Of a stretch of 45,897 nucleotides of DNA, positions 1-41,625 are shown in pieces. Numbering within the stretch: position 1 is the stretch's first letter; each line of letters starts with the position of its first letter. Origin of the DNA: Fragilaria crotonensis (lineage: Eukaryota > Bacillariophyta > Fragilariophyceae > Fragilariales > Fragilariaceae); assembly GCA_022925895.1 (NCBI GenBank), contig JAKSYS010000512.1, positions 1-45,897 on the forward strand, written 5' to 3'. The translations under genes were made by a program, and so were the position numbers. A model generated the notes under the pieces. The model ran no database searches. It was not told the DNA's origin and saw nothing but the letters and a program-made list of their open reading frames with translations.

Positions 1-140
1 CAAGGCGAGTATATTAATACTGTAGTACTGTGTAATGTCAGGATCGTAGATTTGCGTAGCTTGTACTAGGCTTGGAATAATACCAGAATGCAACTTCAGC
101 GCATGCAGAATTAGATATTCCGATCCCGATTTGCTTCAAA

Positions 141-2333
141 GTGGCACTGGTGTCACTAGTACCATCAGTAGAAGATGTACCAGAAAAGAACAATATGAAC
201 TGTCGGTATTCCTTGGAGCGAGTTCATTTGATGTGTTTATGTTTCGGAGCCAGAAACACTATAAACGCAATGAGAGGTCAAAAGGTTTACAAACGGATAT
301 TGGACAGCTTGATGTCAAGTGTTCATCGCAGGGGACCTGGACAGGAATACGAGTATGACCGTGTTTATACAGATGTGGAGAAGCGACAAGTAACCCCTGA
401 AGAATTGTTACGTTGGTTGAACGTGCGAACATTTGGTATCCCTGATCCTGCGCCGGACACAAGGATTCGGCCATTGGTAGAGCTAACACCATTGCATTTT
501 GGAAAAGGCAATTTCGTTTCACATGCCAGACCGTCTGCACGGATGGCGTACTGGGAGCAATGATGGTAATCCAACAAAGTGTGCTGAGGTTAATGATTTC
601 GTGAAATTTGTTAAGAAGTTGGAAGCGAGAAACAAGGTGCAGCATCACAAACGAGGCGACCGATGGTTGAGACTGAATTCGGACGTCTCCACGAAGTGTT
701 TAAGACATTTGCGGTCCTCACAGTTCAGGGATTTGGAAATTTGGAATGCCGGCTCTTATTAACTTTCAGTTTCATATGATAGCAAGAATTGACGATACTA
801 CACAGGTGATTATGGATCACATTCGGGTGCATGACAATTTTGACAATGCGTTGAAGACTCGGTTAAATTGGAGCAAGAATGTACAAGATGAACGCGATGC
901 GCCGTGGCAGATCATCCTTGCAAGTATGAACCCTGTGTATTGTGTGTATATCAGTTTGGGCTTGTGGTTGGAATCTAATTTGCGATCAAATGCGTCGGCG
1001 ATGGCGTCACCGTACGTCTTTTCATTCTCGGATGACGTTACGATACCGGGTGGTGGGCTAAAGGCAAAGGACACCGCGCAAAACATCTTTGGTCAAAGGT
1101 CTTGAAGTTGCAAGAGTTTCAGAACGGAGGTCTATTGGGAAGTCACAGTATTCGGAAATTCGCATCGACACGTTCGTCGCTGTGGAATATCGAAAGACGA
1201 CAAGGACACGAGAGGCCGTTGGAAAGGAAAGGTCGGGTTTCAGATCGTTATGATGACGTGGAATTGCCGTACCCAGATTGTAAAGTGGCAGAAAAAGTTG
1301 TGTATGGGCGGAGCTTGTTATTATGTGATTGACAGTGCCATTTGCGATTCTAACATCTTGAAAACGTTTATTCTCACAAAGTGGTTCCAAATATTCGGCA
1401 AAGAGTACCCGATTCGGCAGCAATTGTGCTTGGTAAGGCTATACTTTGGCTTGTATATTCAAATGTGTCGTGCAATTTCATTTCTGTTGCGGAGCGAGAT
1501 CGTGTGAAAACGGATTTGGCGGAGACGGGTATTGTGATTGTTGATGGACAGAATCCTATTGCAAAGGTGCCGATCATTGTTAGCGGAGACCAAGGTACTG
1601 TGTATATTGATGAAGTCCCAAGGGTCCCGCTGCCGGCGGGCGTCAACAATGGTATCATGGACAATGATGGAGCAGCCCTGCAAGGATTGAATGCGCGAAC
1701 ACTGAATAGGCGAATCCTCGAGAACAATCAAGCCAGCGGTGATAAACTTCAGAACTGGATGCTTCAGCTGCAAAGTGGTTTTATGAGTTTGAGACGAGAG
1801 AATGTGGAACTTCAGGTGAGATTGCTGCACTGACACTGAAGATGGAGCGAGGATTTGAAGTAATGAATGGGAATATGAGAAGGATTGCACTACAGCCGGC
1901 GCGACAACGACTTGTGACAGCAACAACGGCAGCTGCTGGCGGAGCTGCAACCGGAGAAGGAACTGCTGCCGCAGATGCCGCTGCTACTGGTGAACTAGCG
2001 TTGCTTGCCTGCCCTCGCCATGACGAATCCTGCCACCCTGATGCCGATCCAAAAAGTCTATATGACTTGTGGCATGAGTATCTACATGGGGTTGGAGGGA
2101 AAACCCGCGAGGCTTTTTCCGAAACTGAGCGAGGGCGGGTCAAGTACAAGTTCACCAGAAGGAAGGTTGTCTGGGATGTGGTTCGGGATCTGGTTAGCTT
2201 GGGCCATAGTTCCCAAAGAGCGATCGACCTCATCTACGGTGTCTATGGACCGCAGACGAGTGTCACGGTCATCATTAATAGGCTGAGGAGGGACAAGAAA
2301 AATGGGACTATCAATCCCAATCTTCGGATTTAG
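141..2333 (+). mobile_element. Crypton-like tyrosine recombinase, frame-broken
   Basis: A single protein can be followed through at least seven reading-frame segments (about 141-563, 499-745, 746-1100, 1102-1290, 1290-1375, 1375-1833, 1842-2333), each joining the next by a small indel. The middle part has tyrosine-recombinase features: an Arg-containing block near 860-900 (RLNWSKNV), an H-x-x-R box near 1140-1170 (GSHSIRKFAST), then a candidate nucleophile Tyr near 1245 (VSDRYDD). The C-terminal segment (about 2044-2333) has a Trp/Arg-rich block (LYDLWHEYLHG, FTRRKVVWD, IINRLRRDKK) resembling the GCR1_C DNA-binding domain. A tyrosine recombinase joined to a GCR1_C-like domain is the known build of Crypton DNA transposons in stramenopiles. 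The family assignment is from memory, not a search. No in-frame stops occur within the segments, so the breaks are recent or are sequence errors. Element ends were not found; Cryptons lack terminal inverted repeats. Confidence 0.65.
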
Positions 2334-2335
2334 TT

Positions 2336-3430
2336 TTAGTTGACATAGTGCTGGCGGGCTGGGAGTAACAGTCTGCATAGCTTGATAGATTTGGTTCGAA
2401 CATGGGGTTTATACTCCGTAGTATGACATCTGTCATGAGCGGTCGTATGTCGTGATAGTTTGTACTCGCAGTACAGTACACTTCAGTATACTTTTCACTT
2501 ACGTAGTCGTTTACGTTGCATGCCCTATTGAGTGGTATACCTTCATGCATGAATTCCGGATACATTCGTAGTACTCCACAATTGAATTCCGGAATCTGAC
2601 ACAGACTTCGGACAAAGCATTTGTACTCATATACCAGTACACCAGTACCAAGAATACTGGATGCTGGATACCCAGGCTCACGTCAACGGTTCGTCTTCGT
2701 CTAACACAGTGTGGTATGGTAGTAGCTTCGAAACGACACTTGCAGATTGACGCCGTTGAAGTTCAACAATAATTCAATCTGAACTCAGGCTCATGTTGAA
2801 GGTGCGTCATCTGCTGTATGGCAGGTTCAGCAACAAGACGCTTAAGAAACTATGCTGTTGCAGTCATTCTGCAGTAATTCCAAACTCAACTCAGGCTCAC
2901 GTCGATTGTTGTGTGTCATCTGCTATATGGCAGCTTCAGCAACAAGATGCTTGCAAATTGATGTTGTGGAAAGTGGTTGAAAGCACTAACAAATTGATGT
3001 TCCTTCAGCCCACCTTATCTGCTGCATGGCAAGTTTGGCAACAACAAAATGATGACTTCTGAAAGGGGAATTCCTGTTGCAACCACACAGCCAACAAAGT
3101 CTTCATTGATTTCAATGATGTTGGTACACACAAACATGATTGTAGCTGCACGGATGAATGGAGGCAGCAACCTGACAATGGAGTTCAAGGAGTATCAGTT
3201 TGACAACATGAGATACCCGGTAGTGTGCTGGCAACAGCATCTAGTACTTCACTATTATGCCAGTTTGCTTTGTACTAGTAACATTTGGCTGCAGGAAGGA
3301 TTTGGAAATTCTGATACTGGATCCTTGTTCTTCAACTGGTTGTTGCTTTTGCTAGTAAGTCACAGTACTTGCAGAATCTGATCTCACTTCAGCATGGAGC
3401 GAATACTACAAGACCCCATTTTGCGTAAGC
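2336..3430. other. Gene-free stretch with degenerate repeats
   Basis: No supported gene. Between about 2744 and 3060 an imperfect unit recurs, recognisable by 'CTCAGGCTCA', 'CATCTGCT.TATGGCA' and 'TTCAGCAACAAGA' near 2785-2840, 2890-2950 and 3008-3045. The 2400-2660 part is rich in AGTAC/GTACT words. The short open frames at 2793-3062 and 3049-3381 resemble nothing known and cross the repeat. Confidence 0.5.
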
Positions 3431-3433
3431 ATC

Positions 3434-4145: not shown

Positions 4146-4585
4146 CTATTTTGTGTTCGTTTTGCTCTTGTAAGGCAGCTCTTAAACAAAGTTCACAAAT
4201 GGGATGATCCCGTTCGTTTTGTGTTTCTTATGTTCACGGAAAAATCGCCCTTGACCAACAATACCTGAAAACACGGCAACACGGCTGGTGCACAGTGCGC
4301 AGCCCTTGCTCGGCGATGATACCAGTACCAGTACCAGTAGTTTGACATCGATTGCGCCAACGAAGGCGCGATGACGCGTTTGCCAGGCCTTCCTTGTACT
4401 GTAGACTTGCACTGTACGTCGCGTTGGTGAGGTTCGCATTGTGGCTACTCTCGAGAGCTACCGTTTCCGGGAAGTTCGGATTTGGGACACGATTCGAGTA
4501 TGAATGTATGAATGCCTTGCCATTTTTCGTTCACATTTCGATTTTCATTCGGATTCCCTTCGGCATCCGGACTCCAAAGCCAGCC

Positions 4586-5962
4586 ATGCGTCTTCGATTA
4601 CTGCTCGTTGTTTGGATCTGGCGCATCGTCGCCGTCTCAACAATAGATTCGATTCGGAAGCAGATAACAATCATGAATAAAAGCGGAACCAGGCTCCAAG
4701 TCCTTTGGGTGAGTCAACCGGTGACCAGGTCCCATTCTCGGACATCTACAACGGTGCACGCGTTAGCGTCGACAGCTTCGTTAATCACACATTTGTCATA
4801 AGGCAAATGAACGTCGAAGCGAAACAGAGTCGCATAGGCTACCTCACTGTCGACAACAGTGACAACCAAGGTAAGTGGACGCCCTCGCGCCCAAACTTTG
4901 CATCTCGTCAGCATTAACCATTTTTTCTCGTCAGTCGTTCTCATCAAGGAAAACATGGAGATCAAACGAGAGGACAACGGAGCCAATACAGAGGTGAACA
5001 CCACGCTGGAAGTCGAGAACCCTTCCATTCGAACGATCAGATCGATGAACTTGTGGCCGGATACGAAGAGCGGCTTACCTCGATCTTAGAGAAAAGAATA
5101 AAGAGATCAGTTTCGAGGCGAAGAATCGCATGCACATAGGGAGCTTGCAGAAGACTACACTTGTCTAGATGATGAGCTTCCAACGAGTCAAGGAAAAGAG
5201 ACACGTCAGTGGGCTTATAACGACAAATTGCACGATGTTAATGTGCTTCTGGAACGTCCTGACAGTCAGATTCATCTGATCCGTAATTTCATCACGCAAG
5301 AGGAATGTGATGCATTTCAAGGGGCCGCTTCAAGTATTCTGCATCGAGGAACAGTGGCTGATGGCAACGGTGGCAGCAAACTTTCCGAGAATCGCAAGGC
5401 TTGGCAAGCAGGTATTGCTGTTCCATGGGAGAAAGAAGCTGACGGTGATCTCCTCGCCAGATACACACGACGAATGTACGCCTATGCAAATCATGCTACA
5501 GGCTACAACTTGAATGTAGAAGGCCAGGAAGACATAATGAGTATTCAATACTTTGGTCACAACGGTGATCACCCCATCGGGAGCTCGTATAGCCCCGAAA
5601 CTCCAGATAGGTACACGCCGCATTGTGATGGTGATTGTCATGGGTTGCCTCATCGAAAAGGAGCCAGAGTCGCAACGATGGTTGCCTACTGCACCGTTCC
5701 GTCCAAAGGTGGTGCGACGAACTTCAAGAATGTTGCAGCTCACGTGAAGCCAGAATTCGGAGCTGGAGTCTTCTTCAGCTATATGAATCCAGACACGAAG
5801 GTCATGGACACCGGGTGGACAACACACTCAGGCTGCCCCGTTCTTGAGGGAACTAAGAGAATTGTTGTTCACTGGATGCGTGTGGGAGTGTCCACTGACG
5901 AACCGTGGGATTCATTCAACACTTTGAATCTACCAAAGCACTCGGAACAGGAATATTATTAG
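4586..5962 (+). CDS. Prolyl 4-hydroxylase-like 2OG-Fe(II) dioxygenase, frame-disrupted
   Basis: Predicted to hydroxylate a protein or amino-acid residue using O2, 2-oxoglutarate and Fe(II), probably in the secretory pathway. The N-terminus (MRLRLLLVVWIW) looks like a signal peptide or membrane anchor. A short membrane-distal domain follows, then the catalytic double-stranded beta-helix encoded at about 5220-5900. The iron-binding H-x-D is visible (HCDGDC, near 5620-5640), as are the distal His (HSGCPV, near 5825) and the 2-oxoglutarate-binding basic residue (KRIVVHW). One GT-AG intron lies at 4871-4934 (64 bp; GTAAGT...TCGTCAG). The reading frame must shift near 4704, 5034 and 5101 for the conserved protein to continue; the region from 5102 to the stop is open. 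The start was chosen because the leader is in frame with the first conserved block. Its stop lies 8 nt from the stop of the convergent UNC-45-like gene. The fold is certain; the substrate is unknown. Confidence 0.8.
4871..4934 (+). other. Intron in dioxygenase gene
   Basis: GTAAGT donor directly after an in-frame CAA-G. A pyrimidine-rich tract (TTTTTTCTCG) precedes the TCAG acceptor. Removal joins the two coding parts in phase 1 (G|TC, Val). Confidence 0.75.
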
Positions 5963-5970
5963 TGTCGTCA

Positions 5971-8900
5971 TTAGAATCCTTCTTTAGCAATATTCTTCGC
6001 AAGGTTGACTGTCAACGTCATGATATCTTGTTCCGCATCTGTGAAACCTAGGTCTGAGGCCAGCGAACCGTCATGGTATGAATCAACGTAGACACGGCAG
6101 AACACGGTCAGCCCAGCCGCGACCACCTCCTCCTTGCATTTGCCACCAAGTTCCATTAAGTTCTGAATCACAACTAAAACGCGATGCATTAGCTCTAGGT
6201 TTCCACTTTGGAGGAGGGCGGTCATAGATTCTTTGAAGGAAGGAAGTCCCACCAATGCGATGGCTATGTCGATGATGTGTGTCGACATCGCAAGACAGCC
6301 CGATGCGGCGCGAGCGCATTCCAAGTTGGATTCGTGGTCAGCTGCGAAAGCTAACCAAAGTCGCAAGTTCTGCGGGTCTGAGAGGTGCTTGACCATCGCA
6401 GGGTGGGGCACGAGGTTGCACATGGCTTCCGTCCCAGCTCGGCGAACCAGCGAGTGGTCCGAAAACATGGCATAATTGAGAACCGATACGCCTTTCTCTG
6501 AGACAATCTTCTCCTTTGCGTCGTCGCCTGATGCCGCCAGATTGGTCACAGCCAATAGGCCCTCAAAGCATTGCAGATCCGAGGCGTCTGAGTCACCAAT
6601 CAACAGGAGTAACGGCTTGATCGCACCGAGTCGTTGAGACGTCGTGAGAATACTAGGATTGGTTGTCACCAGCAATCGAGCGATGCATTGGCGGGCCTCT
6701 CTCACGCTCCTCTTTTTTACAGCTGAGGCGTTTTCTGCCTCTTCGAACTTTATGCAGGCCGACAAAGCCCCTTGTTGGATTAATAGACCACGAGACGGTA
6801 TGTCATTTGCCATGCGATTGATACCAACAGCAAGCTTCTCAAGCGTGGTTTCTTTTGCACCTTCCATAAGTTTGACCATGGCTTGCGGGACGTTAGCAAC
6901 AGCAAGCTTCCGGATACGTTCTTCCACAGCCTTCGGGTGGTCATCCGGTACTTTCGGCGTTGCCTCTTTCTCTTCTTCTGTTTTCCCAAGCGCTTGCAGC
7001 TCATCATATTGCTCCATTGAAATCTCTTTCCCAGCAAAAGCTTCTCTTCTTAGTGTCTCGTTCGAAACCGCGATCAAGGAAAAGACGGTTGCAAGCGCGA
7101 ATGCCGACACAGACTCGCCTGCATTCGGCCGATTTGCTAGTTCAACAAGCCTTTCGAGTGCTGTTTGTTTTGCATCCACTTGACTCTTGAACCCGTGTGC
7201 CAACTCTTCCTTCACCTGAGTTTTGGATGACAGATATCCAATCAATTCGATTCCTCGCTCAATAGACGTCGTTGCCATCACAAAGGCCCTTCTTGATAAC
7301 TTTATTTTCCACCTCGTCAGATTCATCCTCGTCCAAGAGTTCCGAAGCAATCTGAAGAAGCTCCATAACGTCACTACTACTTGATTCAAGATTCTTGTCG
7401 GCCATACCGAGCTTAGCTACCGCAGATGCGGCTCCAGAGCGAATGCATTGTTCTGGATGCTCTAGTAAAGGATCTACAGACCCATCTGTAAACATGGACG
7501 AAATGGCAGGTCGACTTTCTCCACCGATGCAGCAGCCGAGACCAGCTCAGATACAATTGCCATTGCATTTGGATCGTTTGATAAAATTAAGTCACGCGTT
7601 TCATGGCGCACTTGGTCCAGGGCCCAGGCGCCGACATCCGGTTTCCCAAAGAGCAGTGACGACACAAATTGCCCTCTAATCATCAACTCGAAAAGCCTTT
7701 CGCGCGTCACGTCACTTTCCTCCTTGGTCTCATCAACCTCTTCAATCGAAATCAATCCGTCACCGATCATTTGTTTTGCAACTTTCATGGCATCATCGTC
7801 GTCCTCAATAGAGGATAGAATTCTTCCCAACACAACCCCGACCTGCTTTCGCAAAATATGATTACTTTTTGTCACAGACACTTCCAAGAGCTTTCTCAGG
7901 CCTCCTTCATCACAAAAAGAAAATCGCACGTCGGGTGGCCCATTCTTTGTCTCGCTTCAAGCGTTGGTATTCTATTTTCTTTATGGCAGCGACATCCCGC
8001 GGTTTCAGGCGACGCAACTCCGATTCCGTATGTTTGTGCAGGAGTGGCTCAGTGGTTGAGGCAGTCACAACGCTCTCACGATTCGCAGCTGTCCATGTGC
8101 TGAGTACATCAAGAGCTGCCGGAAGCAATGCATCGTCGGTAAAGCAAGACATGCACGATCGCATGAGCAGATTGTCGTCAATGGATGACGTCGTTTCCTG
8201 AGAATCGAGTGGATCGAGGTAAAGCACTAACCGCAGCCAAATAGATAGGCAGCCCATTCGTAAGTCTTCAAACAGATCGCCTTGCATCCATTCCGCAAGG
8301 CGAGGCTTGTGATATTTCGTTGCCGTGTTCTCTGACTAATTTCGGGTTAGAGCATGCGAGCGCCAAAACCTGTAGCGCCTTCGCAGACTGGAAGTCCAAC
8401 ATCATACCCACGCCGCCGCGTCGACCGAATTCCAGAGGGGCGGATTTGTCATCATCAGTAAGCAAACCAAGCAAAATATTGAACTGCTTCGTGCGTTCGT
8501 CCTCCTCCCCTGCCTCTCGTATCGAATCAAGAGTTTGACTTATTGGAGTACCCTTGGTCATGTCATGCTTGGCCCGAATCGTTTTCAGCAATGCCCCGGC
8601 AGGTCCATTCTTAGGATCCAACGAGTAGCTGCAGCAAATCTTTCGCAGCATCCTGTAATAAGGCTTTCATCGCGCTGCTGGACGCTTCTGTCAGCAAGAA
8701 CCGCGCTTTCGCTCTTCGATACAAAGCTTTGTTCGAACCGTATCATCCTTCACCGCGGATAGAGCTTCCGGAGCAATCGTCCACACACTCTTGTAAATTT
8801 CCGCGGCTGAGGTGGCATGCAGCTCGGTTCGAAAGGAAAGTGGCCTTGAGGTTTGGATCGACTGCACCCGACTTGCATAAATCAATTCCTTTAGTGTACT

Positions 8901-9001
8901 CAACAATGGCAGCGTCAAATTCGACGATTGAAAATGCCTGTTTCCCTCACTTTTGATACTCTCAGTTGATTCGAGAGTCCTTCTTTCGCCCTGGCTTCCA
9001 T
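5971..9001 (-). CDS. UNC-45/Cro1/She4-like myosin chaperone, frame-disrupted
   Basis: UNC-45 proteins are Hsp90 co-chaperones that fold and stabilise myosin motors in the cytosol. The N-terminal segment (about 8970-8600) encodes TPR repeats: a K-x-E-G-N-x-x-F block, then FDAAIVEYTKGIDL, LSNRAACHL and KALYRRAKARFLL. The rest is an Arm/HEAT solenoid ending in the conserved UNC-45 C-terminal region, with LQCFEGLLAVTNLAAS near 6570-6520 and LVRRAGTEAMCNLV near 6455-6410. The total length of about 1010 codons matches the family (about 930). The protein must be followed across at least seven frame changes, near 8930, 8745, 8620, 8310, 7925, 7500 and 7280. The last 430 codons (7270-5971) are open. 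The start at 9001 is the nearest ATG upstream of the TPR but is uncertain, because a frame change follows it. The breaks may be sequence errors, since the gene is normally single-copy and conserved. Confidence 0.8.
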
Positions 9002-9621
9002 CTTGTCTGCGTAATTCGGCCTGTGGTGAGGAACCTCGTGAAGATGGATGGAGGTACTTGTGTTGTGTTTGTTACCATCGTTAATGTTTCACAGTCATGT
9101 CGTCGGTCGTCGGAGAAGATCGGAAATCAATGCACTCAGCCAGTACAGTATCCAGTATCTCGTACTGGAAAATGCTGTAAGAAGAGTCACGAATGTCAAT
9201 CACACGTCCGAAACGCTGTTGGGGAGAGGGGGTGGGGTTGAGTGTGTTCTGACTGCTGACGAGATTTACGAATGGACTCTATGACACATGACACTGTACG
9301 ACGTACTTGTAGTATATAACATTGTTGTACTCTGAGTACTCTGTGAATTCGGATCTCATTGACTAAACAAGTGAGCGGGAATATGAAATATGAGATGCAC
9401 GCATTTCTCTAAACTCAACAGGCTGGTTTACACAAGATAAGCTCAATAGTAGGCGAGATAACATGAACATACGTAGCAAATGCTATGGAACAACATCCTT
9501 CTAGTCGGAGTACAATAATATTTACAACATTTTCATTTTTGGACGGGGCCCACTCGCAATCGGGAAGGAAAACCGATATTTCGCGAGACATCCTTAGTGG
9601 CGTTCGCAGTCAACCTCGTAA
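9002..9621. other. Intergenic region
   Basis: Lies between the UNC-45-like start and the POT transporter stop. No gene is seen. AGTAC/GTACT words are dense at 9140-9170 and 9290-9345. It should contain the UNC-45 promoter and the POT 3' end. Confidence 0.5.
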
Positions 9622-11159
9622 TCACTTGTCAGTTGGAGAGAAGAATACTCGCCCTTGCTTAGATGACTCCTTCGATGCTCGTAGAGCTGCCAACTCCATG
9701 TCGGTACCAGCGTCATGTGCCTTCCGTTTCTCCCAGACTTTGCCAACCCAACAAAACACCAATAGATTGCACAACATGAGGCCAGCACAAATTTGCATCA
9801 CGAAAGCTCGATTCAGATCCTGAAAACACTAGAGTAAAGCAATGCTCCAAAAAGTTGCCAATAGCAGTCATCACAAGATAGATTCCCATGATGAAGGCTT
9901 TCAGTCGTTCCGGGACATGGCGTAGGCAAACTCAATCCCGTTACAGACACGAAAATCTCGGCCACAGCCAAAATAGTTATTTGCGGGTTGCCAGAAGACG
10001 CTAACGGATTTTTCTTCGCTGTTCTGAATCAAAATTCTAGAAAGCCGCTTATTGAAAAGGCGACGGCTGTCAAGAACATGCCCCAACGCATGCGGCTCAA
10101 GTGTGACGTATTGACTCCCAGGTCTTCAAGAGCGGGATAGATGAGGCGATCAAACAGGGGAATGAAAATCATGATCTCCACTGGGTTCACAACAATAAGT
10201 TGCTCTGCCTGGAGCCCATGCAGCTTCATACGCGTCGCCTGCAAGGTCCAAACGGAACTTTGCTGATCATACAACATCCAAAACATGGGAAACATGATCA
10301 TGATGGGCAGGACGCGCAGTGCTTGTTTGGCATCATTCAGTTGCTGATTGGTATCTTCTTCGTCATCGAGCCCGCTTATTGGTGATCTCTTCGGTATGAC
10401 ACCAGGGAAAACACGACACATCCACGTTCGTGCCAATTCCTTTCGAACCACCCAAATGCATACTGCAAATGTTGTCGACAATGACTTTCCATCTTGTCCC
10501 GGTATGTGATGGACGTAATCGTTCCGTTTCGATAAAAAAGTGAGCATAGCCGTTATAATAAAGATGGTCGGTAGCAAGAATGCCGCTCCAAATCCAAAAT
10601 GGTACTTTACGATAGGGATGACTGCTATCGAAGTGACTGCCCCTAAATTAATGCAAAAATAAAATGAGGCGAAGGGCTCTCACTCGCTCGGAGCTGGACG
10701 ATGAAGCCGACTCAACATCAATTGCGCTTTCTCCCGGTCCCTTTCCATCGATGACACTTGGTCTGCCCCAAAGGATGATACACATGGCTTGATGCCTCCA
10801 GTGCCCATGCAAAAGAAGAAGAGGCCACAGAAGCTCAACGCACGCTTCCGCACGAGATTGTCTTCCACGAAAGCCCCGACCGTCAGAATAGACAGACCAA
10901 CGGCATATATCCAACCAAAGCAAAGGATAGTTTTATATCGTCCTAAGTACGCATCTGCCAGGAAGGCTCCGAGCATTGGCGAGGCGTATGCCAAGGACGT
11001 GACGTAGGCATACAGGGCGATGGCCGTTTCTTCGGTGAAGTTCAGCGAATGGACGAAATAGAGAACTAAGACTGCACGAAAACCGAAGTATGCAAAGCGT
11101 TCCACCGTCTCGGTTATCAGAATGCACCAAACGACCGGGGTTAGAAAGGTGGCATCCAT
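9622..11159 (-). CDS. POT/PTR family proton-coupled peptide transporter, frame-disrupted
   Basis: Encodes a 12-helix major-facilitator carrier that imports di- or tripeptides (or nitrate and related solutes) with protons. The N-terminal part shows the E-x-x-E-R proton-coupling motif with the family signature (ETVERFAYFGFRAVL, near 11120-11075) and the GTGGIKPCVSSFGADQ signature (near 10800-10750). FASFYFCINLGAV follows near 10675-10640 and AVAEIFVSVTG near 9965-9930. The C-terminus ends at a TGA at 9622. The length, about 512 codons, fits the family. Breaks: an in-frame TGA at 10680-10682 (or a pair of indels around a Ser-rich linker), then frame changes near 10040, 9985, 9925, 9905, 9850 and 9825. 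The start at 11159 (MDATFLTPVVW) is preferred over the upstream in-frame ATG at 11240, because that ATG lies inside the inserted hAT element. The gene is broken as written. Substrate unknown. Confidence 0.8.
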
Positions 11160-11208: not shown

Positions 11209-12000
11209 CAGGCCGTGTAAAATTGGGGTATTTTCCTCAAATTGGGGTATTTTCCCCAATTTGAACCTTAAATCTACCCCAATTTAAAATCACGTAGAAT
11301 ACGTAGGAGTAGTATGATAGTATTGGCCGGTTGGCGGGAAGACCTCTGTGTTGATTTGAAGGGAAAACATGGAGCATGGAGTTGATTCTCCGTATTTTGA
11401 GTTGTAGTATATGTTATAAATTTTGTCAAACAAATTGTCAAGCAAATGCAGGCCAATAAGAAGCATACCAAGGGTACTAAGCCAACTCTTTTCCACGAGA
11501 AGTGGTTAATGGCTTATGCACTTCGCGTGACTGCTCGAGATGCTGCAACGGGCAGTTTTTGCCGAGGCTTGGGCTCCGTTCAAAAACAATCATTTTGAAC
11601 CACTAAAGCGGTTCTTTGGTGGTCTCGCAACTGTTTTCCCTGGGACTGTTGAGTCTGATTTTTGTTGATTAATTGGGAAAAGGACGATTATTGTACTAAT
11701 CTCACTGATCTTCCCTTGAGGGGATCCTGCACTACAAACAATACTTTGAATTGCTTGGTGTAGCTAATGAAATGAAGTAGTATTGATAAAAAATTGAAGA
11801 TAAAAGACAGGTAAGTGTGGTCTACTACATCGTAAACAAGTCTATTCTTACCTCTAGTAGTTGTAGTAGTACTAGTATTAAGCGTGGAAATGGTGCACCC
11901 GAGTTGCACCCCAGTTGGCACCCCATTTGAAGACCCAAATTCACCCCAGAAATAGCCTATTCTGGGGTTTTTGGGGTATACCCCAATTTTACACGGCCTG
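11209..12000. mobile_element. Non-autonomous hAT-type DNA transposon, 792 bp
   Basis: Terminal inverted repeats begin CAGGCCGTGTAAAATTGGGG on both strands (11209-11232 and 11977-12000), flanked by a perfect 8-bp duplication. An 8-bp duplication with CAG-type ends is the hAT superfamily pattern. On the plus strand, 11454-11574 encodes a piece resembling the N-terminal region of a stramenopile hAT-like transposase (FHEKWLMAYALRVTARDAATG, then a Cys motif). At 11530-11720, overlapping frames encode a C-terminal-like piece (FFGGLATVFPGTVESDF, then WEKDDY). The two meet near 11545, as expected of an internally deleted copy. No functional transposase remains. The element lies 49 bp upstream of the POT start codon. 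The ends and duplication are directly visible; the transposase family is by recall. Confidence 0.8.
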
Positions 12001-12008: not shown

Positions 12009-12302
12009 TCGCCATAAAAAGGCGAACATTTTCGTTATCGCGTGCAACGGCCAGTACAAGTGGCCGTGGACCTATTACCAACCGTAAAAAAGAAAGTACT
12101 GTACAATTACTACAAGAGTAACTAGGAAATATAATAACGCAGGATGTTACCGTAGGGTTTGGTACAGAATGCACGCACGGGAAAATCTACTGCAAGACAT
12201 CCGACAAGACTGTCCTATTTTATGCCAAGTGCCAAGTGCCAAGTGCACAGTAGACATGATGCACGCAAAATGTATATTCATGTCACTATTTCTAACCAAC
12301 AT

Positions 12303-13121
12303 ATTCCACCACAAGTCAATCAATTCTCGTCCAATTGCAGAATTTGAAGCAGATCCAAGACCACGGAAGTACCTCAAAACTTACTACGTACTCAGATTGT
12401 TCCCAAGTCCATTTTCTCCGAAATTCCAACTTCAACAGGCGACGACATCCATGGCATCCGGACTCTACATCTTGATGACATATTCGACCACAAGTCGATC
12501 AATTCTCGTTCAATTGCAGAATTTGAAGCAGATCCAAGACCACGGAAGTACCTCGAAACTTACTGCGTACTCAGATTGTTCCCAAGTCCATTTCTCCGAA
12601 ATTCCAACTTCAACAGGCGACGACATCCATGGCATCCGGACTCTACATCTTGATGACATATTCGACCACAAGTCGATCAATTCTCGTCCAAATGCAGAAT
12701 TTGAAGCAGATCCAAGACCACGGAAGTACCTCGAAACTTACTGCGTACTCAGATTGTTCCCAAGTCCATTTTTCCGAAATTCCAACTTCAACAGGCGACG
12801 ACATCCATGGCATCCGGACTCTACATCTTGATGACATATTCGACCACAAGTCGATCAATTCTCGTCCAAATGCAGAATTTGAAGCAGATCCAAGACCACG
12901 GAAGTACCTCGAAACTTACTGCGTACTCAGATTGTTCCCAAGTCCATTTTCTCCGAAATTCCAACTTCAACAGGCGACGACATCCATGGCATCCGGACTC
13001 TACAACTTGACAACAGATTCGACCACAAGTCAATCAATTCTCGTCCGATTGCAGAATTTGAAGCAGATCCAAGACCAGGGAAGTACCTCAAAACTTACTG
13101 CGTACTCAGATTGTTCCCAAG
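12303..13121. repeat. Tandem satellite, 178-179 bp unit, about 4.6 copies
   Basis: The word CAATTCTCGT recurs at 12321, 12500, 12678, 12856 and 13035, giving spacings of 179, 178, 178 and 179. Units are about 95% alike; the outer ones diverge most. Plus-strand open frames of more than 200 codons cross it, but the unit length is not a multiple of three, so these frames drift from copy to copy and are not evidence of a gene. A small preceding repeat (GCCAAGT) lies near 12222-12248. Confidence 0.9.
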
Positions 13122-13779
13122 CAAAACCAGCCATCAGCATGATTGCCAAATGTAGTTGTTGTGACTGTCGCTGGTATGTGAGAACTATGATACAAAGTAC
13201 CACCGAGAAAGTGTCTTCAAGTAACGTTTTACTTAGGGCAGAAGTAACATTTCTGCACCATTTTTGAGTACCCACAGCGTTACGGAATCATCGAAAATAC
13301 CATTCAATTCAGTAGGAATTACCCGCAAGAATACTGCTGCCTTCAGAGGGGGTATTTCAGATTTACGTAGAGCGCCTCGTAGCATATAGTATCGATGAGG
13401 AAAGATCTACTACCGTAACGTTACTTTAGTAACGTTTACGATCTAATACATATGTACTATGTAATATAGCCGGTACTTGTAGTACTGCTACTACATGCAT
13501 ACGGTCGCATAAAGCCAAAACATGAAAACATGACACCTGGAGGTTCCGGAAGGTTGGCTTATTTGCCGTACGGAATACTGGCGGCTACGCATACTATCGT
13601 ATTCCATTTCGAACGGATCCAGATAAAATATCCCCCCCTTGCACCGATTTCGAATGTCTTGATTATGTGTCCCTTTTTTAATTACCAAACGTGATGTCGA
13701 GAGTCTTAAGTACATTGCATCGAAACGACGTGTGCAAACGTCAAATCAACGCATTGTTCGTGGAACTACTTAGGGATAA

Positions 13780-13870
13780 AAGCCATTGGCTTCCAGAAGC
13801 CAATGGCTTAAGACAAAGGCTTCTGGAAGTCATTGGCTTAAGCCAAAGGCTTCTGGAAGCCAATGGCTTC
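13780..13870. repeat. Palindromic minisatellite, 30-bp period
   Basis: Built from AGCCAATGGCTT and CTTCTGGAAG palindromes, period about 30 bp, in the left arm of the foldback-like element. Confidence 0.8.
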
Positions 13871-14100
13871 CACGCTACAGTCGGCGAAGCCAAACTGAAA
13901 AACACACGTTTTAATATTATTGGAAGAAGCTCGTCATCAAAGGTCTAACTTACGGCTTTTCATCTTCAAATAGACAGTGTCGTTCGAACTTAGAGACTTG
14001 AATATATGGTACGCATTTGACGATGACCCCTCATTATGTCTCGTTTCCTTTATAACGAGTTCCCATAGGAATAAAACACGTTCTTTGATTAGCTCGGCGA

Positions 14101-14204
14101 AGCCATTGGCTTAAGCCATTGACTTCCAGAAGCCATTGGCTTAAGCCAATGACTTTCAGAAGCCACTGGCTTAAGCCAATGGCTTCTGGAAGCCAATGGC
14201 TTTT
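14101..14204. repeat. Palindromic minisatellite, inverted copy
   Basis: Same 30-bp AGCCATTGGCTTAAG / CTTCCAGAAG units as 13780-13870, in opposite orientation. Confidence 0.8.
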
Positions 14205-14471
14205 GGACATATCCTTACTAAGTAGTTTAACCACCTTATTTAAACCGTCGTCAGAGAAGTCATTTCACTTCCATTACTTAACTTTAAATACAAGTGCTTG
14301 TTGTTAATTAAAAAGGATCATTAGCTCACCGTTCCGATTTATATCAGACTTGGATTTATTTAGCTTTTGTTTTGAAGGAATCGCACGTACAGAATTTGTG
14401 TATGTAGACAAATGTACGATACGGCATAAAAGCCAGACTTCCGGAACCTCCAGATGATGGTGGCCATCGAG

Positions 14472-15655
14472 AAAGCTTAACGTCTAGATATTTCGATCTA
14501 TTTAGAATCTATATCGAAGATAAAAGTATATACTTTTGTATACATTCATCTTCATTTGTCCTTCAGCCCCATGGACGTCATCAGCTTTGTTCGTTCACCA
14601 ATCAGAGTGCTAGTTGAAAGGGGTGTTCGCAAGTGCGCGCTGGCACGGTTGCCAAATTTTGGTTACACCACATCCGATGATCACATGTGATGAATTGATG
14701 AATACCAGGTACCACAACAGTTGAAACATGTGTTGTGCCTCCAGTGGGTTGTGCTAGCTAGTAGTACTCCGCGCACGAGGTACAAGTACGATACCCATGT
14801 ACAACACGAAAGTTCCATCCAAAATCGAGCATCCCCATTTTCTTGAGACAAACCTACAACGGTTTAATACTGAAAGTCTACGAGTTGCTGTTAGCGTTGG
14901 TACTACTGGTACATAGGACATCCCCGCGAGTATAAAATTCGAACAACGATAGTTCGAATTCATCGTAGATTCTACGTGCATCCCAGTACTCTGAGTGCTC
15001 CAGCGGCACAGTCGAGATTTTATACTGCACACTACAATACTGAAGTGCTCCGCGTACTCGATTCCACTACTACAGTGGCGGTATCACGATACCGGTACGC
15101 CGGTGAGCTTTCTTTGTCATGAGGCCCTTCTCAAACAATGCTTTGAAAGTCAATCAAAACAGACATGTTCACTCTATTGTCTCTACTACTGACTACAATT
15201 GGTACATGTGCTAAAGACACAGATTGGAGAGTAAAAAGAAGGAGAACTACAGAGATATTACAAGCAGATTGTCTGCAGTGGAGGTCCATTGTCCAAGTTT
15301 GAATTGTGGAATTTTGTGATGATATTGTGCATTTGGCGTTCCAAATGCATTCAGGTACATCGTCTACCGTTTCTACTTACCTGCGTAGGTGTATACCAGA
15401 CCTTCCGTTGGTTTCAACTTCGGATTTGGGCGCGGCTAAAACGAACAAATGATTCAAAAGCACCAACGTAGAAGTCAAAGTACCCCAAGTATGACATATT
15501 TGGACTAATCGATGCACATGGAATGAGATTTTAAGTGAACCGAGGGGTTCGTATCGATGACGTTCACATGACGTTATAATCATCTGTTCGGGAAGGGTTA
15601 CTTTTATCTTCGATGTAGATTCTAAATAGATCGAAATATCTAGACGTTAAGCTTT
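14472..15655. mobile_element. Inverted-repeat-bounded element, about 1.18 kb
   Basis: 57-bp arms at 14472-14528 and 15599-15655 are inverted copies with one mismatch (core AACGTCTAGATATTTCGATC). TGGCCA lies just outside each arm. The interior has no recognised gene. It directly adjoins the foldback-like element, and the flank near 15681-15705 resembles that near 13523-13550, so the two may form one composite. Class unknown; no target duplication seen. Confidence 0.55.
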
Positions 15656-15791
15656 ATCGTGGCCATCGTTCCGAAACGCAAACATGACATGAGAAGTTCC
15701 AGAACTTTGTTTATCGAGTTCATCAACATAATGATGCGTTGCTCACGTGATTAACAAATACACCGCATGCCCAGTCATTGGCATTGTCGGT

Positions 15792-15807
15792 CCCCCCCCC
15801 CCCCCCC
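15792..15807 (+). repeat. Poly-C tract
   Basis: Sixteen consecutive C, 24 bp upstream of the sulfotransferase 1 start codon, so probably in its 5' leader or promoter. The length is likely to be unstable. Confidence 0.9.
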
Positions 15808-15831: not shown

Positions 15832-17097
15832 ATGGTTGCCGTGACCTCGTTAACCTCGAAGCAAAAGAAACAGTGTGTGACAGGAGAAACGTTGTTTCTG
15901 ATAATACGTCTTCTGATTCGTTATTCAGTGGTCGTCGCTATCGTAGCGCTGCTTGGTGTTACCATGCTCATGCATTCACAGTCGAAAGAAATTCCCACTA
16001 AGGGAGAATTCGAGAAGGTGGCAAAAGTCAACCATCGCGATTTACAATTGAAGGCCGTTGCTCAGGCTGTCTCTCAGACTAGGAAAGTAGACACCCCAGA
16101 GTTGCTGAATGCCAAGCAGAAGTCCTTTCTTAGCAAGCACTGCAAACTTGGCTCTGAGAAGAAGTGGTGGATACAAGACGGGGACATAAACTCCTGGCGG
16201 AGACGAGCTCCATATTTTCTTCTCATCGGAGCCAAAAAGTGTGGTACGACATCAATCTTCTCATATTTACAACAGCATCCCAATATAGTCACAGGTGATA
16301 CCAAAGGAGGTGGAAAAGAATTGCATTCTTTTCAACCTGATGGCGGCTTCCCTCAGTGGAAAAACGTGACTGATATTGGCAAAGAGTGATGGTCGACGTC
16401 GCCCGAGAACAGCTGTACCAAAGATTCTACCTGAATCCCAGGATCAAATCCGACCCAAGCGTTGTAAGTTTTGACGCGACACCAGATTATTTACTGTACT
16501 CTGCACTTTCGCCGAAGGCGATTCTTTAATACCGTACCGTGGGTCAAGTTGATGGTATCTCTCCGAAATCCCATTGATCGATTGTTCAGTAACTTTAACT
16601 TCGTCATTGACAAGACGAAGAATGAAACGTTCGAAGAATTTATTGAGGCCGATATAAAGAAGCTAACATCGTTCGGTGTTCTTCAGAACGAGATCCCGCA
16701 GGAAGAATTTTTTGGCTCAGAAAAGGAGAAGACCGTATGGCGGCGATATCAAAGCACACCGAAAATTCGCGCGCGCGCAATTGCTCGCTCGCTTTATGCT
16801 CTTCAAGTTGAAGAATGGTTTGCTTGGCTGGAAGAGGCGGACCGAGATCCATCAGAAATCTTGTTTGTGACTGAGGAGGAATTGAAGGAGAACGCCAGTG
16901 GTGTTATGAAAAGAGTAGTTGAATGGTTAGGCTTGCCACCACATGAGATTAACACGAAGAATAAGCTCATGGTGACTAAGTACACCTCGTCAGGAATGGA
17001 TTCAAAGACAAGGGCGAAACTGCAAGCTTTATTCGATCCTTACAACAAGCGCTTCTATAAATTGATGGGCCCTGAATGGCAGGGTGTTTGGGATTGA
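15832..17097 (+). CDS. Golgi-type sulfotransferase, copy 1 (two compensating indels)
   Basis: Transfers sulfate from PAPS to an acceptor, probably a glycan, in the Golgi lumen. It is a type II membrane protein: a short cytosolic tail, then a hydrophobic anchor at residues 27-46 (SVVVAIVALLGVTMLM in its core), a stem, and the catalytic domain. The PAPS 5'-phosphosulfate loop is LLIGAKKCGTTS (near residue 129) and the 3'-phosphate motif is SLRNPIDRLFSN (near residue 242). Compared with copy 3, one base is missing near 16386 and one is gained near 16535, so the middle 50 codons are in another frame, with stops in the main frame. If these are errors the protein is 421 residues. The start at 15832 was chosen because copy 2 has the same leader (ATGG.TGC.GT). 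An earlier in-frame ATG at 15778 is separated from it by the poly-C tract. Confidence 0.8.
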
Positions 17098-17275
17098 GCG
17101 AATGCGAGGTTAACACGACGGGGACTCATGGTGCCTTTGTGGCCCTCGCCGGTCATGGACTTAAAGGCAGGGGCGAAACTGCAAGCCTTCTTCGATCCTC
17201 GAAATAAGCGCTTCCACAAGTTGATGAGCCCTGAATGGGAGGGTGTTTGAGATTGAGCGAAGGCAACTTCGCCTC
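17098..17275 (+). pseudogene. Duplicated 3' end of a sulfotransferase
   Basis: Directly after the copy 1 stop, about 150 bp repeat the last coding part of the family (GGGCGAAACTGCAAGC, TTCGATCCT, AAGCGCTTC, CCTGAATGGGAGGGTGTTTG) plus the GATTGAGCGA tail. It lacks a start and most of the catalytic domain. It is a short tandem-duplication scar. Confidence 0.75.
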
Positions 17276-17742
17276 GTCGAATGGAAAGCGAACTCAGCAT
17301 TATCATCGTAACACCAGGAAAATCCTTTGAGTGTTTTCCTCTTCTGCGAAAGCCCCTTTGCTGCATGAATCGCCATCGATTGCCACCCCGATGCCGCTGG
17401 GGAAGGGGGGGGAGTGCGGAGTGCGGAGTATCAGGAAGTGTGCGAAACCAAACAGTGCAGTCTAATCATCTGTATTGTACGTTCTGGATACGTTAGAGAG
17501 GTTCTCCGAGTGCATGACATATACATACTTGTAATGCTTGCCTGAAACAACTTTTCCCAGTTGTGCCATAGGAGGAAGGAGGAAGTACGCGCCTGTATAA
17601 GGGCCTGGTTGTTGAAAATTGAGTATTGTACTGTGTGCTGTATGCCAGTACCTTGCACCGAGTACTACAGTAAAATATACGACGCAGTACTAATACACTT
17701 TTACTCTGGTACTGTACGAACTATTCGGAGTATCGCTTATCG
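17276..17742. other. Intergenic region downstream of the duplicated sulfotransferase tail
   Basis: No gene. The first 120 bp resemble the 3' flank of copy 3 (TCGTCGAATGGAA, then AGCGAACT or CGCGAATT), so the duplicated unit extended past the coding region. A G-rich run lies at 17401-17413. Confidence 0.5.
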
Positions 17743-18071: not shown

Positions 18072-18079
18072 CAGAGCAT
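18072..18079. repeat. Target-site duplication, right copy
   Basis: CAGAGCAT, identical to 17743-17750. Confidence 0.9.
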
Positions 18080-18399: not shown

Positions 18400-19710
18400 A
18401 TGGCTGCAGTCGCATCCTTGACCTCAAACCAAAAGAAGCAGTATGCGCCAGCGAAATGGTGTTTCTTATCCGATTGTCCTGTCTCGTGGCTGTCGTAGCG
18501 CTCCTTGGGGTAAGAGTCCTCATGCATTCACAGTCGCACGGATTCATAACTCAGGTCGACTACGAAAAGGTGATGCATGTTGAGCGTTTCGATTCACAAC
18601 AACCGCAAGTGAACGTGCCCCTAAATCATGGAGAACACGAGACTGTGATATATGATGAGAATATCGATTTCCCCAGCATTGCTCCTTCTGCTGAAGCATT
18701 CGTAAATGAGAATTGTGAGATCGGCATGGACGAATGGCAAGGCGAGGAAGAGTGGCAGAGGCGTGCACCCGCGTTTTTGCTCGTTGGAGCCAAGATGTGG
18801 GACAACATCCCTATTCCAGTATTTGCAACAGCACCCCGACATCATTCAGCCGCGCCGAAAGGAACTTCTTTCCTTCATACCACAGCGCTTTCGACATTGG
18901 GCACATCCTGGTGACTTCGAGAGCAAAATAAATGTTCAAGCTGCCCGCAAAGATATGTACGCCCACGATTACCGCAGTGAAACCATCAAGAGGAGGAATA
19001 TGTCGATCTCCTTCGAAGCTACCCCAGATTACTTGCTCTACTCAAGGTTTTCGGCTAAAGCCATTCTATGTACCGTGCCTTGGGTCAAGATTTTGGTGAT
19101 ACTGCGGAATCCTGTCGATCGGGTTTTCTCGCATTATAACTATCTTACGGACGTAAGTCGCATGTCTCAATTGAACTTTTCTATGCCGAAGGAGACTTTC
19201 GAAGAATGGATCCTTGCAGACATGGTGCGGCTGGCGAAACACGGTGTGTCGATTTCCGCAACACAACCGATGACTTCTTCGGTTCTCAAAGCGAAAAAGA
19301 TGCATGGACGAAGTATCAAAGATTCCAAACGCACGGATGCATGATCGTCCCTTGGCGCGGTCACTGTACGCTATCCAGCTTGAAGAATGGTTCGATGCTC
19401 TTCGCTCAATCGGACGAGACCCGAGGTCAGACGTTCTAATTGTTCTTGAGGAAGACCTCAAGGTAGACGCTGCGACCGTAGCCAACAAAATATTCAAGTG
19501 GTTGGGTGTTCCCCTTATGAAATCTCGGCACAGAAAAAGGGAATGGTCACGGCATACAGTAGCACGCTCAAACCCGGGACCCGCCAACTTCTGGAAGACT
19601 TTTACTATCCTTATAATCAGCGACTCTACAAGCTGCTCGGGGAGGATTGGCAGGGCATTTGGGACTGGAACTCAGAAGAAAAAAATTTCTCACATGTAGC
19701 TCAAATTGTC
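18400..19710 (+). pseudogene. Golgi-type sulfotransferase, copy 2, frame-broken and lacking its stop
   Basis: Same layout as copy 1: the leader MAAVASLTSNQKKQ at 18400, a membrane anchor near 18462-18525, and the PAPS loop split across frames (FLLVGAK in one, CGTTSLFQYLQQHP in the next, near 18790). The 3'-phosphate motif is ILRNPVDRVFSHYN near 19095-19140. Frame changes are needed near 18450, 18795, 19240, 19310 and 19500. Sequence identity to copies 1 and 3 is clearly lower than theirs to each other, so it is an older duplicate. The usual C-terminal WQGIWD is not followed by a stop: the frame continues into the stem of copy 3. It could be one half of a two-domain enzyme if the frame breaks are errors. 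Confidence 0.7.
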
Positions 19711-20776
19711 GCTCAGGGAGTCGCTCAAGGCAAGAAAAAAGACACGCCGGAGTTACTGAATTCCAAGCAGAAGTCCTTTCTTAGCAAGCACTGTAAACTT
19801 GGTTCTGAGAAGAGGTGGTGGATACAAGAAGGGACAAGAACTCCTGGCGGAGACAGCTCCATATTTTCTTCTCATCGGGGCCAAAAAGGGTGGTACAACA
19901 TCAATCTTCATCTATTTGCAACAACATCCCAATATAGTTCCAGGCGATACCGAACGAGGTGGAAAAGAATTGCATTCTTTTCAACCTGATGGCAGCTTCC
20001 CTCAGTGGAAAAACATGACTCACGTTGGCAACGCAGTCCTGGTCGATGTCGCCCGAGAACAGCTGTACCAAAGATTCTACCTGAATCCCAGGATCAAATC
20101 CGACCCAAGCGTTGTTAGTTTTGACGCAACACCAGATTATTTGCTGTATTCTGCGCTTTCGTCGAAGGCGATTCTTTGTACCGTACCGTGGGTCAAATTG
20201 ATGGTATCACTTCGAAATCCCATTGATCGATTGTTCAGTAACTACAACTTCATCATGGACAATTCAAAAATGCCGGAGTGGTTCATCCGGACAAGGAAGA
20301 ATTACACGTTCGAAGAATTTATCGAGGCCGATGTGAAACAGCTAACATCGTTCGGGGTTCTTCAGAACGAGATCCCGCAGGAAGAATTTTTTGGCTCAGA
20401 AAAGGAGAAGACCGCATGGCGGCGATATCAAAGCACACGGAATCTTGGTGAACGTTCGATTGCTCGTTCGCTTTATGCTCTTCAAGTGGAAGAATGGTTT
20501 GCTTGGCTGGAAGAGGCAGACCGAGATCCATCAGAAATCTTGTTTGTGACTGAGGAGGAATTGAAGGAGAACGCCAGTGGTGTTATGAAAAGAGTAGTTG
20601 AATGGTTAGGCTTGCCACCACATGAGATTAACACGACGGAAAAGGTAATGGTGACTAAGTACTCATCACCCGCAATGAACTCAACAACAAGGGCGAAACT
20701 GCAAGCTTTCTTCGATCCTTACAACAAGCGTTTCTACAAGTTGATGGGCCCTGAATGGGAGGGTATGTGGGATTGA
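19711..20776 (+). CDS. Sulfotransferase, copy 3, without its own membrane anchor
   Basis: A PAPS-dependent sulfotransferase domain, closely similar to copy 1. The PAPS loop LLIGAKKGGTTS is near 19869-19905 and the 3'-phosphate motif SLRNPIDRLFSN near 20209-20245; it ends GMWD-stop. Unlike copies 1 and 2 it has no start codon, cytosolic tail or anchor of its own. Its stem (KKKDTPELLNSKQKSFL) is read in frame from the end of copy 2. Two one-base losses relative to copy 1 occur near 19830 and 19853; from 19860 to the stop the frame is open. An ATG at 19799 opens the long frame but would give an unanchored, cytosolic protein, so it is unlikely to be the true start. Confidence 0.75.
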
Positions 20777-21587
20777 GCGACGGCAGCTAACTCCTTTCGT
20801 CGAATGGAACGCGAATTAAACCAGGAGGATAATGTGAAAGTTTTCCGCATTTCCCGAAACCTCTTTCCAACATGCATCGCTATCGAAGCATTATAAATGC
20901 GCGAAACCAACCAGGGCAGGCTTTCTTCCGTAAGTTCGGGATCGTATTCGACGCGAGCGTTTATTAACTAGACAATTTGTCTATTACTCACGGATTTAAT
21001 GCCCCACTAGCCACTTGTAGATCGATGACACCACTATGGAGTTCAACCGATGGTTATCTTGTGCTTGTGGTCACCTGGTGAAGATAGCTATTGGACTTGC
21101 GTTGTCCAGCTTATGGCCCGTGTGACTCTAATACTCTAATGCTCTTTGCGACTTCCGTTGGGTCCGTAGCTTTTGTGGTGCTATGATTGTAGCAGACCAG
21201 GATGCGGCATGTCAGTGAGCTCCCAGCTCCCGGTATTGTACCCAGTACTGCGGTACATAAGAACTCAGTGCTACATGGTATACAGTACAGTTGCTCATGA
21301 TTGAAATAATGGCAAGTACAATAGATCCATTGTGAAAATGGAGCGCCACTGCTACAGGACTTCTGCATACTTGAATGGCGGTCTGCCATTGTCCTGTCCT
21401 ACACTAGTAGTAGAGGTATCATAGCCCAACACCACCAACCTTCCTTTCAATTCTCACACCACTGCTTTCTTTCTTCAGATTTTATGTTTTATTGGGATTC
21501 TAATTTCTTGCCCCCATAGCCCACATACAACTCAGGAATCCTAAATCGGAGACACAGCGTTTGAGTTTGAAGGAAAGTATACCCACC
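20777..21587. other. Intergenic region before LSG1
   Basis: No gene seen. The first 110 bp are the 3' flank shared with the copy 1 repeat. The rest has AGTAC/GTACT words near 21240-21290. Confidence 0.5.
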
Positions 21588-23758
21588 ATGCCCCGCAGTC
21601 AAGGCACGTCCCGTAAGGGCAAGCCCAAGAAGAGTGAACGAGAGGCTGGTATGGGACGAGCTTTGGCGAAGTCGCAGACGAAACGTTTCAAGCCCAAACT
21701 GAATGGTAGCAGTCGTGGTGAAGGCATGGCTATGGCACCAGGAACAACGCACATTGGTATAGAGACGGATAAGGAAAAGACTATGTTGTCAGTTTTGGAA
21801 ATGCATGATCTTGCAGACTTCTTGGGACAGGCCGAAATGGCAAACCGCGAGTTCGTCTCGGAACGTGAGCAATTCCTGGTTCTGGATGAGGTCGGAACAG
21901 AAGTTCGGAACGATTCTGATATTCGTGTCAGTTGGGCCGATCAAGCACAGCCACAGAGCGACTTTGTCTTCAAGGAGCTTTCGGTACCAAGACGACCTGC
22001 ATGGGATGAAGACACCTCCGCCGAAGAGTTGGATATCAACGAGAAGGAAGCCTTCCTGCAATGGCGTCGGGTATCGCTGCTCGAGGAGCAATTGCTCGAA
22101 TCAGGGCATGCTCGGGTTACACCCTGAGAAGAACCTCGAAGTTTGGCGTCAATTGTGGCGTGTCATGGAGCGTTGTGCATGTGTGCTGCAGATCGTGGAT
22201 GCGAAATCCACTGTTCTACGTATCAGAGGATCTGCGATCGTACGCGGTCGAGGAGCTCGGAAAGCCCATGTTGCTTGTTGTTAACAAGAGCGATTACCTT
22301 TCCAAAAGTCAACGAAAGGAGTGGCACAATTATTTCAAAGCGAAAGGATGGGATCACTTGTTTTTCTCTGCTCATCAGGAGCAAGAAAAATTGGATAGGG
22401 CAGCATTTGAGGAACGAAAGGAAGCAAGAGAACTCCCTTCGATTCAGTCTGATGAAAATGACATCGACGAGAACGACAACGATGAAGAAGAATCGAATGA
22501 CATCGACGAGAACGACAATGATGAAGAGGAATTGAATGAAATCGACGGCGATGACAAGGTGCCTAGCCAGCCCGTGGATGTTGGTGAGACTGGAGGTGCC
22601 AGTACGCCTACGAAGCGAATAAAGTCGCGAGAAAACATCGGGATCGAAATGCCCTTGACTCGCGAAGAGCTTCTAGATTGGCTGCAATCCTTTGCAGCGC
22701 AATATAGTGTCAACCCGACCCTCGATTCGACGGCAGAATTCAGTTCGGTATGGTCGGGTTTCCAAACGTTGGAAAATCTAGCGTCATCAACGTTTTGGTT
22801 GGAAGCTCCAAACATACGCATGGCGTCGTCAGGGTTGCTGTCGCATCACAACCGGGAAAGACAAAGCACTTTCAAACTCTCTTTTTGCCTGATCGTCATG
22901 ACATGATGCTTTGCGATTGTCCCGGTCTCGTATTTCCCTCATTCGTCAGCAATGCCGCGGATCTAATTGCAGCCGGAGTTTACCCCATAGCACAGATGAG
23001 AGATTTTTGGCCGGTGGTGGAACTCATTTGCCAACGAATACCCCGCGAGATCCTAAATGCACACTATGGAATTCATTTGCCTATCAAGAAAGATCTTGGA
23101 AACAGGGACATTGTCGCACCACCAACTGGAGAGGATCTCTTGACGACATACTGCATAGCAAGAAGCATGTTAGCGGCGTCATCGGGTGTGCCAGATTGTC
23201 AACGCGCCTCTCGCATTGTTATCAAAGACTATGCCGATGGACGTCTTCTCTATAACCACCGCCCCTAATGCAAACTTGAAAGAGTTCCAGCGTGAAACCA
23301 TAGCGACGGCACTCTCGAAAACTCGAAAGCTTCAGGAGAAGCTCGGAAGTGTGATGGAAAAGACTCTTGCGAAACAAAGCATGCATCACGAGGGTCACGA
23401 GGTTATGGAATCAGAGCAAAGCATTCTCGATAACCTTGAGGATGATTTTGACCTCCTTGACTTGGTGGAGGGTTTCGGTGCGGAATCGGACAAAGCCAAC
23501 GGTGGAAAGAGAGGCAAGAGCCACAAGACGATGCAGAAATGGGGAAAGAAGGGAAAGAAAATTCGTAACAAGGATCCGTATGGTTGCCATTCCACGCCAG
23601 ATGAAATGCTGCATGGCTCAGCTACTTCCACCGGAGCGGTAGTCTTGGCTGGAAAATATGGCAAGGCAGGGTACACCCGACCAACTAGTTATGCAGGACC
23701 GAAAACATCGACCGAGTTTGAGAAAGTTGATACAATCGCGAAGAAAGCACTGTACTAA
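21588..23758 (+). CDS. LSG1: LSG1-like circularly permuted GTPase, frame-disrupted
   Basis: Lsg1 is a cytosolic GTPase that releases the export adaptor Nmd3 from the pre-60S ribosomal subunit, a late and essential step of ribosome maturation. The motif order is the permuted one: G4 NKSD (about 22286), then an acidic insert, then the P-loop GFPNVGKSS (about 22756-22782) and G3 DCPGL (about 22915-22929). Family blocks flank these: EKNLEVWRQLWRV before G4, and GKTKHFQTL, QRIPR and KDYADGRLLYNHRP after. The C-terminus is Lys-rich. The insert contains a 39-nt acidic repeat present twice (DIDENDNDEEE). The frame must change near 22117, 22205, 22746 and 23266. The start at 21588 (MPRSQGTSRKGK) fits the basic family N-terminus better than the in-frame ATG at 21561. 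Because the gene is essential, sequence error is the likeliest cause of the breaks. Confidence 0.88.
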
Positions 23759-41610: not shown

Positions 41611-41625
41611 TTCTTATGAATGATC

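Follow-up and report, generated by a model that had tools for sequence, protein, structure and literature searches.

The 45,897-nt stretch of Fragilaria crotonensis DNA analyzed here (contig JAKSYS010000512.1 of assembly GCA_022925895.1, positions 1 to 45,897 of the forward strand), referred to below as the window, carries broken reading frames in the genes of its left half and open frames in those of its right half. The affected genes are a Crypton-like transposon open reading frame (ORF), a 2OG-Fe(II) dioxygenase gene, an UNC-45-like gene, a POT transporter gene, a sulfotransferase gene (ST1), an apparently two-domain sulfotransferase gene (ST2-ST3), and the gene for the GTPase LSG1. Very likely, the left ~26 kb holds small insertion/deletion (indel) errors of the consensus that stayed uncorrected while the rest was corrected, making the breaks an artefact. 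The genes underlying this half are most likely intact and functional, and there is no new biology in the frame breaks.

Frame breaks along the window

As a parameter-free lower bound, we took the smallest number of frame switches that carries a reading through each gene without a stop codon, which gives 28 switches in the 13,894 nt of the seven left genes and 0 in the 12,615 nt of the right genes. At penalties of 5, 7, and 9, a codon-model path places 31, 29, and 28 breaks, respectively, in the left genes, against 5, 1, and 1 in the right genes. The right-hand calls at penalty 5 comprise three in the gene for a 1201-residue protein, one in the MPAB/Lcp oxygenase gene, and one in the FKBP gene. 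The FKBP call alone persists, and this apparent break at 33,423 is an artefact, the span tested having included the FKBP stop codon. Three-frame translations read by eye give approximately 41 breaks on the left (Crypton-like ORF, 9; dioxygenase, 4; UNC-45, 9; POT, 6; ST1, 2; ST2-ST3, 7; LSG1, 4) plus one in-frame stop in POT; this list is subjective, most of all for the Crypton-like ORF, whose upper part has no reference, and 41 is to be read as an estimate, with 28 as its lower bound. The gene spans used in these counts are off by at most 3 nt from the verified starts, with no visible effect, and two apparent introns (4871-4934 and 40939-41000) were excluded. Introns are also rejected as the cause of the breaks, both intron-like gaps (64 and 62 nt) being ordinary GT-AG ones.

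The left half thus carries approximately 3 frame-visible breaks per kb (2.95 per kb of coding DNA), or 2 per kb if the lower-bound count is used. At the left-hand rate, the probability of observing no break on the right is 9e-12 with the lower-bound count and 7e-17 with the by-eye count; if a probable break in a kinase gene at the boundary (see below) is counted, the comparison becomes 1 against 41 (p = 1e-10) or, with the lower-bound count, 1 against 28 (p = 2e-7). An initial annotation of the window had described about 30 small frame corrections on the left and nine unbroken genes on the right. The breaks are borne out, although that number lies near the lower bound of 28 and short of the 41 seen by eye; the right-hand half likewise needs no switches, but its nine coding segments make up eight genes.

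LSG1 contains the last clear break, near 23.26 kb. Further right, on the forward strand at 25897-26040, lies a probable kinase N terminus in a frame different from that of the main kinase ORF: across 25,890-26,009 the score is +6.8 nats for the frame opened by the ATG at 25,897 and -0.7 for the main kinase frame, and the order flips after 26,040. A codon log-odds of ~7.5 nats makes this probably the last break, near 26.01-26.04 kb. The initial annotation had confined the damage to positions 1-23758 while allowing for perhaps one break at the kinase N terminus; the restriction to the left stands and the suspected break is now a probable one, which moves the probable end of the damaged zone from 23.76 kb to near 26.0 kb.

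Kind of lesion and coding signal

The lesions are nearly all small frame changes, with a stop codon arising without net shift in at most 1 of ~42. For comparison, a report on Phaeodactylum tricornutum (PMC6604790) gives 4.77e-10 substitutions and 1.58e-11 indels per site per generation, a ratio of ~30:1. Random substitutions create a stop in 3.8 to 4.2% of cases in the codons considered here; at these P. tricornutum rates, therefore, over half of the disabling lesions should be nonsense changes. The probability of at most 1 nonsense change among 42 lesions is then 6e-13 to 6e-14, rising to 9e-4 to 2e-3 if indels are five times commoner and to 0.04 to 0.06 if they are ten times commoner. With 33 lesions (host genes only) or 29 (mechanical minimum plus the stop), the corresponding values are 0.005 to 0.02 for the fivefold and 0.10 to 0.19 for the tenfold case.

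In addition, we observe a uniform density of breaks across the seven unrelated genes (chi-square, 3.12; 6 degrees of freedom; p = 0.79; p = 0.87 with lower-bound counts), and the Crypton-like ORF does not differ from the host genes in this respect (p = 0.28). Under biological decay, one would expect essential genes to be spared and the density to differ with age. The coding signal between the breaks is undiminished, with median scores per codon of 0.063 in 19 hand-chosen left pieces and 0.074 in seven right segments (p = 1.0), under a codon model trained on the right half and in a comparison that left out FKBP, for the stop inside its span, and a small Cys-rich gene. A chimera of two organisms is rejected on the same grounds, since the left pieces match the right segments in score under the right-trained model.

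Single-base losses also occur outside genes. In a left-hand tandem array of 4.6 copies of a 178-nt unit (12299-13121, 823 nt), which serves as a noncoding control, two of the near-identical copies are one base short at the same T-rich spot, the missing base differing between them. The resulting rate, 2.4 losses per kb where coding DNA has 2.95 breaks per kb, rests on two events only. A 164-nt array in the right half shows no one-base loss, the one difference being of 4 nt and at its edge, here too among few events.

Comparison of the sulfotransferase copies ST1 and ST3 shows purifying selection between them. Over 327 codons (288 of the 301 in the main block, with 13 gapped codons dropped, and 39 upstream), 98 sites differ, of which 55 are third, 29 first, and 14 second codon positions. 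The ratio of nonsynonymous to synonymous change (dN/dS) is 0.25, and none of the 327 codons is a nonsense codon. The same alignment requires four frame-shifting one-base differences.

Origin of the breaks

These features are consistent with error-prone long reads that were left under-polished, and a change in read depth or polishing may account for the boundary. Most probably, the left part rests on few error-prone long reads, for example as a contig tail carried by one or a few of them, or is a stretch where short reads failed to map, and in either case would have missed the correction given to the right. Published cases are similar: most MinION errors are indels, with possible effects on gene prediction, and two diatom assemblies required short reads for their correction (PMC8147415); SNPs and indels in bacterial MinION assemblies dropped as coverage rose (PMC6325685); and in one bacterial draft, 1101 annotated pseudogenes (89.2%) were frameshifted only (PMC12007338). 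The unpolished diatom assemblies and the bacterial drafts share with the window many small breaks, few nonsense changes, and otherwise normal genes. Unlike in those cases, the breaks here fall on one side of the window only and end near 24-26 kb, and of the six errors that can be pinned to a position (four in the sulfotransferase alignment and two in the array), roughly half or more appear by eye to lie outside homopolymers.

Several observations fit consensus error less well. The left-half breaks form clusters (variance/mean, 1.5 to 1.7; simulated p = 0.007 to 0.016), and the error would therefore have to be patchy; the by-eye list places six breaks in ~210 nt of POT and five in ~335 nt of the 5' part of UNC-45, and a break-free stretch of ~2.1 kb runs from the end of the dioxygenase gene through UNC-45. 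The two POT pieces have the lowest coding scores (0.012 and 0.020), the only possible stop falls in this gene, and a transposon lies on its 5' side, so that POT alone could be truly decaying, a true pseudogene inside an error-rich stretch. Shift signs read by eye lean toward loss, 27 against 14, without reaching significance (p = 0.06), and the codon-model path shows no such lean (15 against 14 at penalty 7). Finally, the homopolymer evidence is weak and mixed. Runs of 4 are extended to at least 5 more rarely on the left (55 of 294) than on the right (66 of 250; p = 0.04), as homopolymer shortening would produce, and G/C runs of at least 5 are likewise rarer on the left (6/74 against 17/77; p = 0.02), whereas extensions from 3 to 4 (p = 0.88) and from 5 to 6 (p = 0.39) show no difference between the halves, all of these p values being uncorrected for several tests.

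The initial annotation had left the choice between a poor consensus and a decaying copy; on sequence evidence the former is strongly favored. That the left half is a genuine copy, made by a recent duplication and decaying since, with intact genes elsewhere in the genome, is improbable. Such a copy would explain broken frames in genes expected to be needed, as well as the low coding scores of POT and the transposon insertion just upstream of it. LSG1 is firmly established as essential in yeast, while the essentiality of UNC-45 is less general, its counterpart She4 being dispensable in budding yeast. As in a pseudogene cluster within a segmental duplication, several adjoining genes are broken together, but here without nonsense changes, loss of coding signal, or differences in density between genes. 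It is the near absence of nonsense among the ~42 lesions, the undiminished signal between breaks, the equal density in seven genes, the dN/dS of 0.25 between the sulfotransferase copies, and the two single-base losses in noncoding repeats that make a decaying copy unlikely, and old decay is rejected as the cause of the left-half breaks. A very recent regional burst of small indels, hitting a ~26-kb block of one homologue before substitutions accrued and with the other homologue functional, is a far-fetched possibility.

The poor consensus proposed earlier had included mixed haplotypes, and a consensus of two diverged haplotypes, in which the breaks would be alignment scars from merging functional alleles, would suit the patchy clustering if allelic divergence is high. 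Highly divergent regions could also resist polishing. Nevertheless, such merging is very improbable as the whole explanation: functional alleles keep their frame and should not by themselves give 28 to 41 frame changes, and the right half has no breaks. Mixed haplotypes are more likely to have contributed to failed polishing than to be the origin of the errors, and that part of the initial annotation does not hold on its own. Least credible of all is that the cell bypasses the breaks through programmed frameshifting, tiny introns, or editing, a scenario favored by nothing beyond the breaks themselves. The shifts are of both signs (27 and 14), the six pinned breaks share no motif by eye and two of them sit in noncoding repeats, the breaks end at one boundary beyond which neighboring genes need none, and both apparent introns are of the ordinary 62- and 64-nt GT-AG kind. 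Programmed frameshifting in particular is rejected on account of the two shift directions, the absence of a shared motif, and the single boundary.

With uncorrected consensus errors as the preferred reading, claims of gene loss or pseudogenes should not be made from the left ~26 kb for LSG1, UNC-45, POT, the sulfotransferases, or the Crypton-like element, and automatic gene models in this region are likely truncated. The share of nonsense changes, the coding signal between breaks, and tandem repeats as a noncoding control could flag similar regions without reads.

Gene content and repeated elements

Genes were annotated by Pfam and PDB sequence searches. The Crypton-like ORF (141-2333, forward strand, ~9 breaks) is named for a recombinase recognized by eye and for a C-terminal GCR1_C match at 1842-2333 that falls below threshold (22.7 bits; cutoff, 23); four other pieces of it gave no Pfam match, and its identity as a Crypton is only weakly supported. 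In Kojima and Jurka (2011; PMC3212892), GCR1_C is reported for CryptonF of fungi and oomycetes and not for CryptonS, known there from oomycetes and one diatom. The dioxygenase gene (4586-5962, forward strand, start uncertain; PF13640, E = 6.5e-9) has its ~4 breaks in the first 550 nt, leaving the final ~820 nt open, and contains the apparent 64-nt GT-AG intron at 4871-4934. The UNC-45-like gene (5971-9001, reverse strand; E = 1.8e-27 to an insect UNC-45 chain) has ~9 breaks and an open C-terminal 1.3 kb.

The POT/PTR2 transporter gene (9600-11159, reverse strand, 3' end approximate; PF00854) has ~6 breaks, all at 9,790-10,030, and the in-frame stop near 10,680. Approximately 50 nt upstream of its ATG sits a 792-nt insertion (11209-12000) that ends in perfect 21-nt terminal inverted repeats and is flanked on either side by an 8-nt direct duplication, GTCCCCAG; we take it to be a hAT-like nonautonomous element. 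Between the 178-nt array and ST1, two blocks of 30-nt AAGCCAATGGCTT-like units at 13778-14204 are mutually inverted at 92%, and a pair of inverted repeats of ~61-68 nt at 14461-15665, 96 to 97% alike and ~1.07 kb apart, is perhaps another terminal-inverted-repeat element.

ST1 (15832-17097, forward strand; PF00685) has 2 frame breaks and is followed by a partial extra copy of its tail at ~17106-17292. Just upstream of it lies the longest homopolymer of the window, 16 C residues at 15792-15807, the next longest being 8. ST2-ST3 (18400-20776, forward strand; PF13469/PF00685) has ~7 breaks with the last ~920 nt open; ST2 appears to run into ST3 with no stop between them, which would suit the fusion of a tandem duplication into one two-domain gene. 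The LSG1 gene (21588-23758, forward strand; E = 5.6e-44 to a Large subunit GTPase 1 homolog chain) has 4 frame breaks, and its GTPase motifs, recognized by eye, are intact within the pieces. One LSG1 piece compared with prokaryote genome contigs gave a single bacterial locus at 40% identity over 61 residues, which is irrelevant, and comparison of an LSG1 piece, a Crypton piece, and TatD with viral contigs found no relatives.

The intact half that serves as a control (25940-44697) encodes a WNK-like kinase, an MPAB/Lcp oxygenase, a small Cys-rich protein, FKBP, the 1201-residue protein, a two-exon gene, an ATP-grasp protein, and TatD. Pfam confirmed the kinase, MPAB/Lcp, ATP-grasp, TatD, and FKBP; the small Cys-rich protein, the 1201-residue protein, and the two-exon gene gave no Pfam match, the last being ankyrin-like by eye and split by the apparent 62-nt GT-AG intron at 40939-41000. 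Beyond these genes, positions 45282-45624 hold an array of 21-nt palindromic GAAGTGGAATTCCACTTC-like units, spaced by 21 nt except for one spacing of 117 nt.

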